Positions 43,683 to 49,282 of a stretch of 64,000 bases of DNA are shown piece by piece. The stretch comes from Paracoccus lutimaris (GTDB lineage Bacteria; Pseudomonadota; Alphaproteobacteria; Rhodobacterales; Rhodobacteraceae): contig NZ_QPJL01000011.1 in the NCBI RefSeq assembly GCF_003337565.1, positions 62,001 through 126,000 of the forward strand, written 5' to 3'. The notes below the pieces were generated by a model. The model saw only the letters and a list, made by a program, of their open reading frames with translations. It was not told where the DNA came from and ran no database searches. Both the position numbers and the translations under genes were made by a program. Each line of letters opens with the position of its first letter. Position 1 is the first letter of the stretch.

Positions 43683-44468
43683 ATGTTCACCATCGCCACC
43701 TGGAACATCAACTCGGTCCGCCTGCGCGAGGCGCTGGTCACCCGCCTGCTGACCGAAGAGGCGCCTGATATCCTGTGCCTGCAGGAGATCAAGACTCCGA
43801 TCGACAAGTTCCCGGTCGATGGCTTTGCTGCGCTGGGCTATCGCCATCTCGTGGCGCGCGGGCAAAAGGGCTATAACGGCGTCGCCATCCTGTCGAAGCT
43901 GCCCATCGAGGATGCGGGCGACCGGGACTATGCCAGCCTTGGCCATGCCCGCCATGTTGCGGCGCGGCTGGAAAATGGCGTCACCATCCATAACTTCTAC
44001 GTCCCGGCGGGGGGCGATATTCCCGACCGCGAGCAGAACGAGAAATTCGGCCAAAAGCTGGATTTCCTGACCGAGATGCGCGACGCCTTCCATGCCGACA
44101 ATCCGTCCCGGGCCATTCTCGTGGGCGATTTGAACATCGCTCCGCGTGAAGACGATGTCTGGTCGCACAAGCAGCTTCTGAAAATCGTCAGCCACACGCC
44201 GGTCGAGGTCGAGCATCTGGGCGCGGCTCAGGATGCCGGGAAATGGGTCGATATCACCCGCAAGGACATCCCCGAAGGCCTGCTTTACAGCTGGTGGAGC
44301 TATCGCGCCAAGGATTGGGACGCCGCTGACAAGGGGCGTCGTCTGGATCATATCTGGGCCACGCCCGATATCGCCAATGCCGGTCATGGCAGCCGCATCC
44401 TGCGGCCGGTGCGCGGCTGGGACCAGCCCAGCGATCACGTTCCGGTTCTGGCCAGTTTCGATCTGTAA
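43683..44468 (+). CDS. xth: exodeoxyribonuclease III
   Basis: A 261-residue AP-endonuclease-family protein of normal length. It opens MFTIATWNINSVRLREALVT (metal-binding Asn), has CLQEIKT with the catalytic Glu, YNGVAILSKLPIE, VGDLNIAPREDDVWSHKQ (catalytic Asp/Asn) and the final DQPSDHVPVLASFDL with the catalytic Asp-His pair. It removes nucleotides 3'-5' from duplex DNA and cuts at abasic sites in base-excision repair. The stop is one base before the next gene, so it heads a compact operon of otherwise unrelated-looking genes. Confidence 0.96.
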   Translation: MFTIATWNINSVRLREALVTRLLTEEAPDILCLQEIKTPIDKFPVDGFAALGYRHLVARGQKGYNGVAILSKLPIEDAGDRDYASLGHARHVAARLENGVTIHNFYVPAGGDIPDREQNEKFGQKLDFLTEMRDAFHADNPSRAILVGDLNIAPREDDVWSHKQLLKIVSHTPVEVEHLGAAQDAGKWVDITRKDIPEGLLYSWWSYRAKDWDAADKGRRLDHIWATPDIANAGHGSRILRPVRGWDQPSDHVPVLASFDL

Positions 44469-44469
44469 G

Positions 44470-45948
44470 ATGCGAGCGTTCTCGCGGCGGGCATTGCTGT
44501 TTGGCTCGGGTGCGGCACTGGGCTGGGTCGCGGGAACGCGGCTGGCGCCGTGGCGGGGCGCTCTGGACGGGGTGGCGCTGACACCCGTGGCCAGCGCGCA
44601 GATGCTCGACGATGCCTCGCAGCTTTCGGCGACGCCTGTCGCTAGACATATCGTTCTGACGGATGACCCCGGCGCGGCGCTGATCGCCCGGCTGCGCAGC
44701 GAACTCGCTGAGGCGCGCAGCGCGGGCCGGCCGCTCTGCCTTTCTGCCGCGCGGCATTCGATGGGCGGGCAATCCATCCCGCGCATGGGGACCGCGCTCA
44801 CATGGGACAGCGGCCGGATCGAGATCGACAGCACCGCCCGGACCTATCGCGCGGCGGCGGGCGCGCGCTGGTCGCAGATCATCGCCGCGCTGGACCCGGT
44901 CGGGCTGTCGCCCAAGGTCATGCAATCAAACCATGATTTTGGCATTGCCGCGACATTCTCGGTCAACGCCCATGGCTGGCCGGTGCCCTATGGCCCGATG
45001 GGCGCAACCGTTCGCAGCATCGATCTGATGCTGCCCGACGGTGAAATCGTCACCGCCTCGCGCAGCGAAAACCCCGATCTGTTCGGCATGGCCATGGGCG
45101 GCTATGGCCTGATCGGCCTGATCCTGTCGGTCGAGGCCGAGGCGGCTCCGAACCAGCGCCTGACGCCGACCTTCCAGACCATGCCTGGCGGCGGCCTGGC
45201 GGATGCCTTTGCCACGGCACTGACCGATCCTGCGGTGAGCATGGCCTATGGCCGGCTGTCGGTGGCGCGGGCCGAGTTCCTGCGCGACGAGCTGATGATC
45301 GCCTATCGCCCGGATGCGGATCAACAGGATCTGCCGCCGGCTGAGGGCTCGGGTTGGGCATCGCGCGCGGCGGCATGGGTCTATCGCCGCCAGCTTTACC
45401 GCGAGCCGGTCAAGGCCGCGCGCTGGTGGCTCGAGGCCGGGCTGAACCCGCACCTTGGCGGCGGATCGACGCGCAATTCGCTGATGAACGAGCCGGTTGC
45501 GACGCTGGATGACGGTGATCCGACCCGCACCGATATCCTGCACGAATATTTCGTCAGCCCTGAGCGCTGGGACGATTTCCTGACGCTTTGCCGCGAGGTG
45601 ATCCCCGGCAGCTATCAGGAAATGCTGAACGTCACCATTCGCCATGTCGCCGCCGATCCCGAAAGCTGGCTGAGCTATGCGCCGGTGCCGCGCCTGGCGG
45701 CGGTGATGTCCTTCAGTCAGGAAATGTCCGCGCGGGCCGAGGCCGACATGGCCCGCCTGACCCGCGACATGATCGAGGGCATGATCGCCATTGGCGGCAG
45801 CTATTACCTGCCCTATCGCCCGCATGCACGGCCCGACCAGTTCCACCGCGCCTATCCGCGCGCCGCCCAATTCGCGGCCCGCAAGCGCGAGCTGGACCCG
45901 GGTCTGGTGCTGCGCAATGCGCTTTGGGACAATTATCTGGGGGTCTGA
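44470..45948 (+). CDS. Tat-exported FAD-binding oxidase (D-arabinono-1,4-lactone oxidase family)
   Basis: A 492-residue flavoprotein. The N-terminus SRRALLFGSGAALGWVAG is a twin-arginine signal, so the protein is folded with its cofactor and exported. The FAD domain contains LSAARHSMGGQSIPRMG, where H96 is placed like the His that binds FAD covalently in VAO-type aldonolactone oxidases, and AHGWPVPYGPMGATVRSIDL. The C-terminal half has YLPYRPHARPDQFHRAYP of the ALO domain. It probably oxidises a sugar or aldonolactone in the periplasm. It begins one base after xth and overlaps the DUF4383 gene by one base. Confidence 0.82.
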   Translation: MRAFSRRALLFGSGAALGWVAGTRLAPWRGALDGVALTPVASAQMLDDASQLSATPVARHIVLTDDPGAALIARLRSELAEARSAGRPLCLSAARHSMGGQSIPRMGTALTWDSGRIEIDSTARTYRAAAGARWSQIIAALDPVGLSPKVMQSNHDFGIAATFSVNAHGWPVPYGPMGATVRSIDLMLPDGEIVTASRSENPDLFGMAMGGYGLIGLILSVEAEAAPNQRLTPTFQTMPGGGLADAFATALTDPAVSMAYGRLSVARAEFLRDELMIAYRPDADQQDLPPAEGSGWASRAAAWVYRRQLYREPVKAARWWLEAGLNPHLGGGSTRNSLMNEPVATLDDGDPTRTDILHEYFVSPERWDDFLTLCREVIPGSYQEMLNVTIRHVAADPESWLSYAPVPRLAAVMSFSQEMSARAEADMARLTRDMIEGMIAIGGSYYLPYRPHARPDQFHRAYPRAAQFAARKRELDPGLVLRNALWDNYLGV

Positions 45949-46340
45949 TGGGATTTCACCGCAAGCTGGCGCTGGTCTATGCGCTGATCCTTTTCGCGGC
46001 GGCGGCGCTGAACTATGTGCCGGGGCTGACTGATGCCGAAGGCCGCGTCTTTGGCGTCTTCGCGCTGGATGTCTTTGACGACCTGCTGCATCTGGCCTCG
46101 GGGTTGTGGGCCTTGGCGGCGGCGCTGGTCTCGACCCGCGCGGCGCGGAATTTCCTGCGCATCTTCGGGGCGCTCTATCTGCTGGACGGGCTTTTGGGGC
46201 TGTGGACCGGCTCGGGTTTTCTGGATCTGGGGATCGTCAATTACGGGGTGCTTGACCTGCCCTTCGGCTTCAAGATCCTTGCCAGCGGGCCGCATATCCT
46301 GCTGGGGGGTGTCGCGCTGGCGGCGGGACTGCGGAAATGA
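45948..46340 (+). CDS. DUF4383-type membrane protein
   Basis: A 130-residue protein with four TM segments (about 5-22, 42-62, 70-88, 105-125). The order and the segment VFDDLLHLASGLWALAAAL match DUF4383 membrane proteins of unknown function. The ATG overlaps the TGA of the oxidase gene (TGATG), so translation is coupled. Being co-translated with an exported flavoprotein, it might serve as a membrane partner or electron acceptor link, but that is speculation. Confidence 0.7.
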   Translation: MGFHRKLALVYALILFAAAALNYVPGLTDAEGRVFGVFALDVFDDLLHLASGLWALAAALVSTRAARNFLRIFGALYLLDGLLGLWTGSGFLDLGIVNYGVLDLPFGFKILASGPHILLGGVALAAGLRK

Positions 46341-47383
46341 GCTTTCTCTGGCGCTGGACGAGGCGACTTTTTCTGGCGGTCCTGCTGGTCGCCGTCCTGC
46401 TGGCGCTGCCGGTTCTGCGCAATGAAACCATGTGCCGGGGCACGCCCCTGCCGCAGGACCACGAGCCCATCGTCAGCCAGACCCGGCCCGAGGAACGCAC
46501 CTTCACCACCTATCCCGAATGGCACATCGTCCATGCCTATGAGGATTATGCCCGCGTGATCGCCAAGGCCGATCCGCATGATTTCGGCTATGTTCAGGCG
46601 ATCTCGGGCTTTTGGTCCTCGCTTTGCCCGCTGACCGCGCTGGCGGATGAGCATGGCGGCTTTACCACCGAATCCAAGATGACGCTTTATACCATCGGTA
46701 TCAGCTTCTCCGCCGAGATGGCGCTGAAGGCTGCCTATGAGGAAACGCTGGGCCGCGTTGCGACATGGGCGCGCGGGCCGGGTCACAGCGCGCTGGACCG
46801 GCTGTCGGCGGAACAGGCCGCCGAATACGCGGCCTTTCTGCAGCAGACGCCATGGTATCTGTGGGATTTCCGCAGCGATGCGCAGGCGCTGGATGCTGCG
46901 GCAGGCAGCGATCTGCGCGACCGCGAACGGCGGCTGGCTTTGGGTCTGGAATACCGGGCCAAGGCCGCTTACGCCGGGATGATCGCCGGGGCGGTGGCGG
47001 CAACGGGGCAGGATGCGCTGACCCTGCGCGCCGTGGTCGCGGGCATCACCCCCGAGGCGCTGGCCGCCATTCCCGGCGTCAAGGTCATCCAGCGCCGCCC
47101 CGAGGGGATCGAGATCGAGACCCCCCGCTATCGCGCCCTGACCCATATCCTTGAGCGTATCGCCGATCAGCGCGGCCAGATGGTCGAGATCGCCGGAAAT
47201 GACGATATCCTGCTGACCGCGATCAGCCCCGATCCCGACCATCCCGGCGCCGTCTTTACCTTTCCGTTGCAGGGCAGCGCGGATTTTCGCCACCTGATCA
47301 CGGTCAAGGTGCCCGAGCTTTCCGCGACCCTGCGCGGCTTGGGCGACAGCGGCGCGCGGCTTGAACATATCCACGATTACTGA
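46337..47383 (+). CDS. unknown membrane-anchored protein in the oxidase operon
   Basis: A 348-residue protein with one N-terminal TM segment (about 10-27) and a large outer domain. Notable is FTTYPEWHIVHAYEDYARVI (residues 56-75), an aromatic/acidic patch that looks conserved in character, then a helical region (about 110-225) and a mixed C-terminal domain ending ARLEHIHDY. No known catalytic motif or metal site stands out. It overlaps DUF4383 by four bases and the next gene by one base. Not recognised; probably works at the outer face of the inner membrane with the exported oxidase. Confidence 0.65.
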   Translation: MSFLWRWTRRLFLAVLLVAVLLALPVLRNETMCRGTPLPQDHEPIVSQTRPEERTFTTYPEWHIVHAYEDYARVIAKADPHDFGYVQAISGFWSSLCPLTALADEHGGFTTESKMTLYTIGISFSAEMALKAAYEETLGRVATWARGPGHSALDRLSAEQAAEYAAFLQQTPWYLWDFRSDAQALDAAAGSDLRDRERRLALGLEYRAKAAYAGMIAGAVAATGQDALTLRAVVAGITPEALAAIPGVKVIQRRPEGIEIETPRYRALTHILERIADQRGQMVEIAGNDDILLTAISPDPDHPGAVFTFPLQGSADFRHLITVKVPELSATLRGLGDSGARLEHIHDY

Positions 47384-47667
47384 TGGCGCGGCTGGCCGCA
47401 TATGCGTTGGCCGTGGCCCTTGGCTGGCTGGCGCTGATGGCGGGCGGCATGTTCATTCCCGGCGCGGCGCCGGCGGCGCTGGTGCTGCTGCCGGGGCGTG
47501 ACTTTCTGACGCGCCTGCCCGAATCGGCGCGGCTGGTCGATGCCTCGGGGCGGTTTGGCGTGACCGTCACAGGGGCGGGCGCGCGCCAGCTTTACGCGGC
47601 GGGTGCGGTTCTGGTCCTGCCGGCGGGCCTGCCGCTTTGCGTCGATCCGCGCCGTGATCGCCGCTGA
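47383..47667 (+). CDS. unknown small membrane protein at the end of the oxidase operon
   Basis: A 94-residue protein with two hydrophobic segments (about 3-28 and 70-86) and the middle DFLTRLPESARLVDASGRFG. The start overlaps the preceding stop by one base (TGATG). No family is recognised. The short periplasmic or cytoplasmic loop resembles sensor-like small proteins, but there is no evidence for a role. It is followed 61 bases later by the thioredoxin-like gene. Confidence 0.55.
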   Translation: MARLAAYALAVALGWLALMAGGMFIPGAAPAALVLLPGRDFLTRLPESARLVDASGRFGVTVTGAGARQLYAAGAVLVLPAGLPLCVDPRRDRR

Positions 47668-47728
47668 CCTTGCATCGTCGCAATCCCTGCTCCATCTAGG
47701 GGACAACCCGCCCGAATGAGGAATTCCG

Positions 47729-48640
47729 ATGCTTGAGCTTGGCTCCGCCCCCACCGACAAGGCCCCCGCCGATATCATCAAGGACGTGACCGAGGCGACA
47801 TTCATGGCCGATGTCATCGACGCCTCGATGACGGTTCCGGTGATCGTCGATTTCTGGGCGCCGTGGTGCGGCCCGTGCAAGACCCTGGGCCCCCAGCTTG
47901 AGGCCGAGGTCGCCCGCCACAAGGGCCGTGTCCGCATGGCCAAGATCAACGTGGACGAAAACCAGATGATCGCGGGTCAGCTTCGCGTGCAGTCGATCCC
48001 CACCGTCTATGCGTTCTTCCAGGGCCAGCCGGTCGATGCATTCCAGGGCGCGGTCCCGGCCAGCCAGATCAAGCAATTCGTCGAAAAGCTGGTGGCTCTG
48101 GGGGGTGACGATGGCGGTCTGGCCGAGGCGCTTGACGCCGCCGAGGCCATGCTGGCCGAAGGCGCGGCCGAAGACGCCGCCGAAACCTTTGCCGCCATCC
48201 TTGGCGAAGAGCCGGAAAACGCGCAGGCCTGGGGCGGTCTGATCCGCGCCCATCTGGCTGCCGGACAGCCCGATCAGGCCGCCGAGGCACTGGCGCAGAT
48301 TCCTGCCGCCGTTGCCGGCGCCGCCCCGGTCGAGGCCGCCCGCGCCCAGTTGCAACTGGCGCGTCAGGCCGAGAATGCCGGCCCGCTGGACGATCTGCGC
48401 CACAAGGTCGAGGCTGACCCCGCCGACCAGCAGGCGCGGTTCGACTATGCCACCGCACTGCATGCGGCGGGCGAGGTCGAGGCGGCCATCGACCAGCTGC
48501 TGGAATCCTTCCGCCGTGATCGCGACTGGAACGAGAGCGCGGCGAAAACCCAGCTCATCACCATTTTCGATGCGCTGAAACCGACCGATCCGATTGCGCA
48601 AAAAGGCCGCCGGCGGCTGTCGTCGCTGATCTTTGCCTGA
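47729..48640 (+). CDS. cnoX: thioredoxin/TPR co-chaperone CnoX (YbbN)
   Basis: A 303-residue protein: thioredoxin domain (about 17-112) with active site WCGPC (C47, C50), cis-Pro in VQSIPTVYAF, followed by TPR-like helical repeats (about 118-300). E. coli CnoX has lost the first active-site Cys. This one keeps both, as in Caulobacter, so it may act as both oxidoreductase and holdase that passes clients to GroEL and DnaK. It probably starts a new unit with the Lon-N gene three bases downstream. Confidence 0.92.
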   Translation: MLELGSAPTDKAPADIIKDVTEATFMADVIDASMTVPVIVDFWAPWCGPCKTLGPQLEAEVARHKGRVRMAKINVDENQMIAGQLRVQSIPTVYAFFQGQPVDAFQGAVPASQIKQFVEKLVALGGDDGGLAEALDAAEAMLAEGAAEDAAETFAAILGEEPENAQAWGGLIRAHLAAGQPDQAAEALAQIPAAVAGAAPVEAARAQLQLARQAENAGPLDDLRHKVEADPADQQARFDYATALHAAGEVEAAIDQLLESFRRDRDWNESAAKTQLITIFDALKPTDPIAQKGRRRLSSLIFA

Positions 48641-48643
48641 GCC

Positions 48644-49282
48644 ATGTCGCGCGGCCCCGACCTGCCCGAGACGATTGCGCTGTTCCCGCTGCCGGGTGCG
48701 GTCCTGATGCCGCGCACGCGCCTGCCCTTGCAGATCTTCGAGCCGCGCTATCTGCAGTTGGTCGAGGACGTGCTGAAGACGCCCGGCCGGCTGATCGGGA
48801 TGATCCAGCCGGCGGTGGCGGGGCTCGATTCGCTGGCGGCGGTCGGCTGCGCGGGGCGGATCGTGGCTTTTTCCGAAATGGATGACGGGCGGCTGATGAT
48901 CTCGCTCAAGGCGCGTTCGCGTTTCCGGCTGAGCGAGGTGCAGCCGGGCTTTACCCCCTATCTGCGCGCGCAGGTCAGCTGGACGGGCTATGATTCCGAC
49001 CTGCTTGCCCAGCCCGAGGAAGATCAGGGTTTTGTCCGTTCCACCTTCATGGCGCGGTTGTCGCGCTATATGGAGCTGCGCGGGCTGACGACCGACTGGA
49101 CCTCGGCCGAGGCGTCCGATGACGAGACATTGGTGAATGCGCTGGCAATGCTCTTGCCCCTTGCCCCCGAGGAAAAGCAGGCCCTGCTGGAATGCCAGAC
49201 ACTTTTTGAGCGGCGTGTGCTTCTGGACGGGTTGATGGAATATGCGCTGCGCGGCGGCGACAATGAGGAGACGATCCAGTGA
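48644..49282 (+). CDS. Lon-N (LON substrate-binding domain) protein
   Basis: A 212-residue protein with the Lon N-terminal domain only: [34 protein letters not shown] and the later FRLSEVQPG and [20 protein letters not shown]. There is no AAA+ ATPase or peptidase part, so it is not a protease. Such proteins may bind unfolded substrates; the molecular role is unclear. It starts three bases after cnoX and overlaps the Trm112-like gene by four, so a protein-quality-control operon is plausible. Confidence 0.9.

Follow-up and report, generated by a model that had tools for sequence, protein, structure and literature searches.

Gene content of the locus

We examined five adjacent genes of Paracoccus lutimaris within a 64,000-nucleotide (nt) stretch of DNA (contig NZ_QPJL01000011.1, positions 62,001 to 126,000), here called the window; coordinates count from its first letter unless another locus is named. 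The genome is 4.2 Mb in size. All five genes lie head to tail on the plus strand with successive spacings of +1, -1, -4, and -1 nt, which confirmed the compact arrangement and the coordinates given in the initial annotation. The first gene is xth. The other four (44470-47667), which encode a flavoprotein and three putative membrane proteins, make up the block that is our subject, and we show below that they are co-inherited and keep their order, strand, and overlaps in the relatives examined.

The first gene of the block (44470..45948) codes for a flavin adenine dinucleotide (FAD) enzyme with a twin-arginine translocation (Tat) signal and a predicted VAO/PCMH fold, in which H96, Q152, and Y449 stood out from the structural model and from conservation. 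It is followed by the gene for a DUF4383 membrane protein (45948..46340) with two conserved histidines, H48 and H116. This family assignment, already made in the initial annotation, holds, with a PF14325 match at E=1.1e-8 and 35.8 bits against a gathering cut-off of 27. The third gene (46337..47383) encodes a 348-residue protein, p348, that is modeled with an N-terminal membrane helix, a helical domain, and a C-terminal alpha/beta domain and that carries two conserved cysteines, C33 and C97. The last gene (47383..47667) encodes a small membrane protein of 94 residues, p94, with C86 near its C terminus and a VLPAGL motif, as deduced from 88 aligned orthologs. A promoter scan was uninformative: it gave a single promoter-like site (minus strand), compared with an expectation of 0.9.

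Conservation and co-inheritance of the block

We scanned named genomes for p348 and analyzed the loci of the best 80 of 168 relatives, ranked by similarity to the window protein, a sample that is biased to close relatives. The closest named ones are from Paracoccus, with 93, 76, and 76% identity. Loci cut by contig ends were left out (3 of the 80 for the flavoprotein and DUF4383 genes, 15 for xth, and 5 for the downstream thioredoxin gene). With enough sequence available, the flavoprotein and DUF4383 genes precede p348 in 77 of 77 loci, p94 follows it in 74 of 80, and the complete four-gene block is present in 71 of 77. Adjacent genes touch or overlap in 69/77 loci for flavoprotein-DUF4383, 72/79 for DUF4383-p348, and 67/72 for p348-p94; the commonest spacings, computed with start codons picked by rule, were -4 (60 loci), -4 (49 loci), and -11 nt (42 loci), respectively.

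We further surveyed 198 genomes from 197 genera of the family to which the window genome belongs. The flavoprotein was counted at >150 bits, and three weak matches (41-44 bits) among 25 were excluded from the subfamily count. By this measure p348 was found in 23 genomes, the flavoprotein in 22, and DUF4383 in 20. The three occur jointly in 20 genomes, and 173 have none of them. For the flavoprotein and p348, 20 genomes had both, 3 had p348 only, 2 had the flavoprotein only, and 173 had neither (Fisher p=3e-22, phylogeny ignored). Because the block is conserved and its genes co-occur, membership of the block by chance is excluded, and the co-occurrence counts of both surveys agree with the proposal in the initial annotation that the four genes stay together. 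The block is thus carried by roughly a tenth of the family's sampled genera, and also by other alphaproteobacteria. In one family genome (G184; locus L155, 6092-8665, minus strand) the flavoprotein, DUF4383, and p94 genes are present and p348 is split by a transposase-like insert. A PF14325 search of six relatives gave a match in the window genome and in 1 of 14 control genomes.

Beyond the family, profile searches were run on 385 genomes at class level and 398 at phylum level, some of them members of the family. They identified p348 in 12 genomes from other families, and in the 10-16 kb around these genes the flavoprotein was found at 11 loci, DUF4383 at 10, and p94 at 5. The gene order of the window recurs at two of these loci (L127 and L128). 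At eight others the flavoprotein gene runs in the opposite direction, at 0.2-2.2 kb from whichever gene of the set is nearest, and DUF4383 and p348 are still adjacent. These eight (L129-L135 and L137) are from alphaproteobacteria with large genomes, and at L129 a LysM-like frame lies between. At L138, from outside the class, the flavoprotein and a piece of p348 stand at a contig end. Named strains that carry the block on a plasmid are Ruegeria pomeroyi DSS-3, a laboratory model (SPO_RS20280, SPO_RS20285, SPO_RS20290, and SPO_RS22675), Ruegeria sp. TM1040, and two Tritonibacter mobilis.

The flavoprotein

The twin-arginine signal noted in the initial annotation is well conserved. In the window it reads FSRRALLFGSG and stands before a hydrophobic stretch, and 73 of 77 aligned orthologs have an RR pair ahead of it (60 found by a lenient automatic pattern and 13 of the 17 misses recognized by eye after upstream frame extension) and before the mature part; of the remaining four, three start where a contig ends, and one has KR instead. 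We infer, with good support, that the flavoprotein folds and binds FAD in the cytoplasm and is exported folded by the Tat pathway.

The sole Pfam match at E<=1 is FAD_binding_4 (PF01565, E=7.7e-15), and this general family was the only one of the curated families tested for which the protein scored above the cut-off. The aldonolactone oxidoreductase models TIGR01678, TIGR01679, and TIGR01676 gave 38, 34, and 28 bits against cut-offs of 397, 292, and 458. In structural searches with the predicted model, Foldseek returned a best E of 6e-24, and the 50 matches listed by VIA had Z scores of 31-37 over 373-424 residues at 14-20% identity. DprE1 ranked first (Z 37.4, 2.7 Å, 407 residues), followed by an ancestral GalDH (8qmy, 35.2), and further matches included alditol oxidase (33.1 for 8ot8 and 32.9 for 2vfs) and cytokinin dehydrogenase (32.0). 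The flavoprotein shares its fold with the last two enzymes, unlike which it has no second Pfam domain beside FAD_binding_4 at E<=1 and a different operon context. It likewise shares the fold of plant GalDH and animal and fungal GULO/ALO, GalDH being the PDB entry that the family profile matched best by sequence (75 bits), and it differs from them in the residue at the gatekeeper position, described below, and in its Pfam content, which is the FAD domain only.

DprE1, the mycobacterial decaprenylphosphoryl-beta-D-ribose oxidase, acts at the cell envelope, and the VAO/PCMH fold is shared over the mature protein. We considered a DprE1-like role in which the flavoprotein would oxidize a polyprenyl-phosphate sugar or glycolipid at the membrane, for half-epimerization or modification, while the lipid substrate would be held by p348 and DUF4383. 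DprE1 is the best match both by structure and among NCBIfam models, and the predicted location of all four proteins of the block is in or at the membrane side of the envelope. However, the NCBIfam score (NF053785) is 63 bits, far under the cut-off of 500, identity to DprE1 is ∼16-18%, and the position of DprE1 K418, which we take to be catalytic, is occupied by Y449, conserved in 77 of 77 orthologs. The window enzyme also differs in having a Tat signal, a covalent-type histidine, and three partner genes. The recurrent neighbors that we recognized at the block loci were xth, thioredoxin-TPR, LON, response regulator (13 loci), and ABC transporter ATPase (9 loci) genes; in this table, compiled without a Pfam scan and with several rows that are antisense frames or unidentified, no DprE2-like or glycosyltransferase family was recognized and no hint of the substrate was obtained. 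We consider a DprE1-like role unlikely.

Two positions near the flavin bear on the chemistry. H96, within AARHSMGG, is invariant in 77 of 77 orthologs and aligns with the histidine of an Arthrobacter protein annotated as D-arabinono-1,4-lactone oxidase and with the leucine of GalDH. In GULO and ALO this histidine holds FAD covalently, whereas GalDH has leucine and binds FAD noncovalently, according to excerpts of PMC11099136. The initial annotation had pointed to a possible covalent-FAD histidine, and by this alignment H96 probably binds FAD covalently. In the Legionella lytica plasmid relative and the L138 protein the position is held by Phe and Tyr, respectively, and because of this covalent attachment may be characteristic of the type of operon seen in alphaproteobacteria. 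The L. lytica flavoprotein is a distant one (L142, 5926-7371) with no p348 nearby, and at L141 (5956-7017) a distant p348-like gene is found on a Legionella adelaidensis plasmid with no flavoprotein nearby.

The second position is the gatekeeper beside flavin N5-C4a, which is Gly in aldonolactone oxidases that use oxygen and Ala in plant GalDH, where exchange of Ala113 for Gly raised the turnover number (kcat) with oxygen 15- to 200-fold (PMC11099136, excerpted). In the flavoprotein family this residue is not the Gly of GULO/ALO: Q152 aligns with GalDH A113 and with the Gly that the ALO-type protein has there, and 22 of 23 diverse sequences retain it within MQ[ST], the exception being a second, different FAD protein at L138. 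Judged from these alignments, the combination of His and Gln differs both from the plant dehydrogenase, which pairs Leu with Ala, and from the oxidase, which pairs His with Gly, and since the gatekeeper is Gln rather than Gly, it argues for poor reactivity with O2. This speaks against hydrogen peroxide (H2O2) as a likely by-product, as the initial annotation had it. We predict that the flavoprotein is a dehydrogenase feeding electrons to the membrane and not a peroxide-making oxidase. Aldonolactone oxidoreductases also have a catalytic pair, Arg388-Lys456 (PMC11099136, excerpted). Our sequence alignments stop short of that region; R391 of the flavoprotein is invariant in the 23 diverse sequences. 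A lactone or sugar-type substrate is possible.

The partner membrane proteins

All 95 aligned DUF4383 sequences, and all 10 members taken from other families, have H48 and H116. The positive-inside rule, applied by eye, puts these histidines close to where helices 2 and 4 meet the periplasm, and we infer that DUF4383 is embedded in the membrane and that its conserved loops and two invariant histidines face the periplasm. One of two Rhodococcus plasmid copies of DUF4383, which are short or interrupted, has the last-helix histidine (by eye).

The model of p348 was highly confident (predicted local distance difference test [pLDDT] 93, predicted template modeling score 0.89) and comprises a long N-terminal helix (residues 2-32), a helical part (54-223), and the C-terminal alpha/beta part. 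C33 and C97 are invariant in 99 sequences. The conserved-looking patch of the initial annotation is indeed conserved: the 11 defined positions of PEWHIVHAY.DY are 98-100% identical in the 99 sequences, and a terminal EH.HDY is nearly invariant. The window protein had no Pfam or NCBIfam match at E<=1, and no Pfam family was shared by more than 2 of 50 p348 relatives at this threshold, a stray best E of 0.0032 occurring in 1 of the 50. Against the PDB, Foldseek gave a best E of 0.087 and VIA a best Z of 6.2 on part of the model; these matches are weak and partial and are no proof of a new fold.

In p94, C86 is invariant in 88 of 88 orthologs, and all Pfam and NCBIfam matches were below cut-off. 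The membrane predictions of the initial annotation stand in part. A simple hydropathy scan backed the N-terminal helix of p348, whereas p94 has a second hydrophobic stretch (residues 69-87) and could cross the membrane once or twice; this stretch reached at least 1.6 in 16 of 88 orthologs. Both p348 and p94 appear to be anchored by an N-terminal helix, with the remainder predicted to be periplasmic. Chance open reading frames were ruled out as an explanation for p348 and p94, both being conserved.

The partner proteins might instead serve maturation and anchoring. By this account p348, DUF4383, and p94 would form a maturation or anchoring set, and the flavoprotein would pass its electrons to a soluble acceptor in the periplasm, cytochrome c for instance. 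It would suit a p348 that is large, membrane anchored, and equipped with an invariant cysteine pair, and GalDH, the second VIA match, has cytochrome c as its suggested acceptor (PMC11099136, excerpted). The intact flavoprotein of G161, which has no partners, fits it no worse than it fits delivery to the membrane. On the other side, the invariant histidines suggest that DUF4383 is more than a scaffold, and we regard this account as quite unlikely.

A proposed route for electrons at the envelope

Our favored reading, which we hold tentatively, is that 44470-47667 comprises four translationally coupled genes of one operon for a membrane-attached periplasmic flavo-dehydrogenase that relays electrons to the membrane. 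Like alditol oxidase, GalDH, and DprE1, the flavoprotein would act on a C-OH group, that of a polyol, a lactone, or a (lipid-linked) sugar, and would oxidize it either within the periplasm or at the face of the membrane. With Q152 at the site of oxygen access beside flavin N5-C4a, electrons would go to the membrane and not to O2. The simplest route would be through DUF4383 to the quinone pool, with its two histidines either holding a b heme or lining a quinone site; p348 would dock the flavoprotein to the membrane, and p94 would stabilize the assembly.

Flavo-dehydrogenases of the gluconate and fructose dehydrogenase type and DoxDA-type quinone reductases combine a catalytic part outside the membrane with small membrane subunits that pass electrons. 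The block resembles them by analogy only, in having a catalytic part outside the membrane and small membrane subunits, and differs in that its flavoprotein is from another family, no heme-c motif is present, and the partner families are without known function. It is doubtful, though conceivable, that the block represents a new class of periplasmic quinone-reducing flavo-dehydrogenase, with a Tat-exported covalent-FAD enzyme, a Gln gatekeeper, a minimal DUF4383 subunit, and p348 and p94 holding it; if this were true, DUF4383 would be a redox subunit wherever it is found.

Several observations weigh against delivery of electrons to the membrane by a dedicated four-protein assembly. The flavoprotein model is moderately confident (pLDDT 83.5). 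Residues beyond the gatekeeper also affect oxygen use (PMC11099136, excerpted), and one position is a weak predictor of it. The hydropathy scan found two of the four presumed membrane helices of DUF4383, so its topology, with both histidines periplasmic, is tentative, and the bis-His heme is only a pattern. The CxxCH heme-c motif is absent from the orthologs of all four proteins (0/77 for the flavoprotein, 0/95 for DUF4383, 0/99 for p348, and 0/88 for p94). The flavoprotein occurs without partners in 2 of the 198 family genomes, one intact (G161) and one that departs from the family after approximately residue 420 (G053). Three others (G021, G147, and G153) have only p348 or a fragment of it, between xth and the thioredoxin gene, with a full-length frame in G147, and L136, from outside the family, has p348 alone. 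Since flavoprotein-only and p348-only genomes exist, the parts are not strictly inseparable.

In the block, a flavoprotein superfamily that is already known appears in a membrane setting that is new and conserved. This arrangement offers an initial functional context for the DUF4383 family, whose member here stands beside p348 and the flavoprotein at p348 loci, and for the unclassified p348 family, with a possible role in envelope electron flow. Searches of open-licence PMC papers with DUF4383, with Tat, FAD, and Ruegeria terms, and with p348 peptide words found no description of the four-gene block. For DUF4383 they yielded a table row in PMC11876180. The match for SPOA0086 to SPOA0091, in an excerpt of PMC4334477, concerns another gene, and tags beginning SPOA008 or SPOA009 are absent from the main texts of PMC10041152 and PMC3305630; the old tags of the R. 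pomeroyi block genes were not established. Of the overall interpretation in the initial annotation, the idea of an envelope redox module that stays together, with no description found, is supported, whereas H2O2 as a likely by-product and a coupling to exonuclease III are not.

The xth-thioredoxin slot

The gene upstream of the block, xth (43683..44468, plus strand), encodes a protein of the exodeoxyribonuclease III family (TIGR00633, 158 bits against a cut-off of 99). Downstream, a thioredoxin-TPR gene (47729..48640, plus strand; PF00085 and PF14561) starts 61 nt 3′ of the block and is followed by a LON-domain gene. We judged xth and the thioredoxin gene to lie outside the module. The xth, thioredoxin-TPR, and LON-domain genes (window 43683-49282) form a recurrent neighborhood, and the block was either inserted there or lost from it.

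As the initial annotation had proposed, an envelope lactone or sugar oxidase could make H2O2, with exonuclease III co-expressed to repair the oxidative damage. The VAO/PCMH fold and the covalent-type histidine are as in the ALO/GULO oxidases (PMC11099136, excerpted), and xth lies 1 nt upstream of the flavoprotein gene in the window; in four other loci, 6-11 nt separate the end of its match from that of the flavoprotein. In 18 of the 22 loci with xth upstream, however, it is 86-1092 nt away, and in 43 of the 65 loci with enough upstream sequence it is missing. A genus survey around the thioredoxin gene covered 31 genomes, one without the locus. Of the 30 loci counted, 21 have xth directly before the thioredoxin gene, at a distance of 67-306 nt and without an intervening block; 3, among them the window, have p348 and p94 before it; and the other 6 show neither xth nor p348/p94 within the 1.5 kb examined. 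Because xth adjoins the thioredoxin gene without the block in these 21 loci, the block occupies a slot between two genes that adjoin anyway. Together with the replacement of the gatekeeper Gly by Gln, these counts make a peroxide-forming oxidase paired with exonuclease III improbable. We accordingly rejected xth as a functional partner. The window block may be co-transcribed with xth, yet nothing points to a common task, and exonuclease III looks like a mere neighbor.

Of 75 loci with sufficient sequence, 24 have the thioredoxin gene on the downstream side of the block. At 20 loci of the xth-thioredoxin slot, the distances of the four block genes track those of the thioredoxin gene (r 0.51-0.86), which is consistent with vertical descent within the slot. 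The p348 copies that stand alone between xth and the thioredoxin gene are probably relics of a lost block. Such p348-like genes or pieces, without a flavoprotein or DUF4383, were seen at L101/L152, L104/L154, and L105/L153, with a full frame at L101/L152. Neither DUF4383 nor p348 lies near the partnerless flavoprotein genes at L151 (6583-8070) and L150 (3139-4779), the latter of which diverges from the family after approximately residue 420. A second xth-like stretch in the window genome (L002, 947-1726, minus strand) is 34% identical to the window xth protein.

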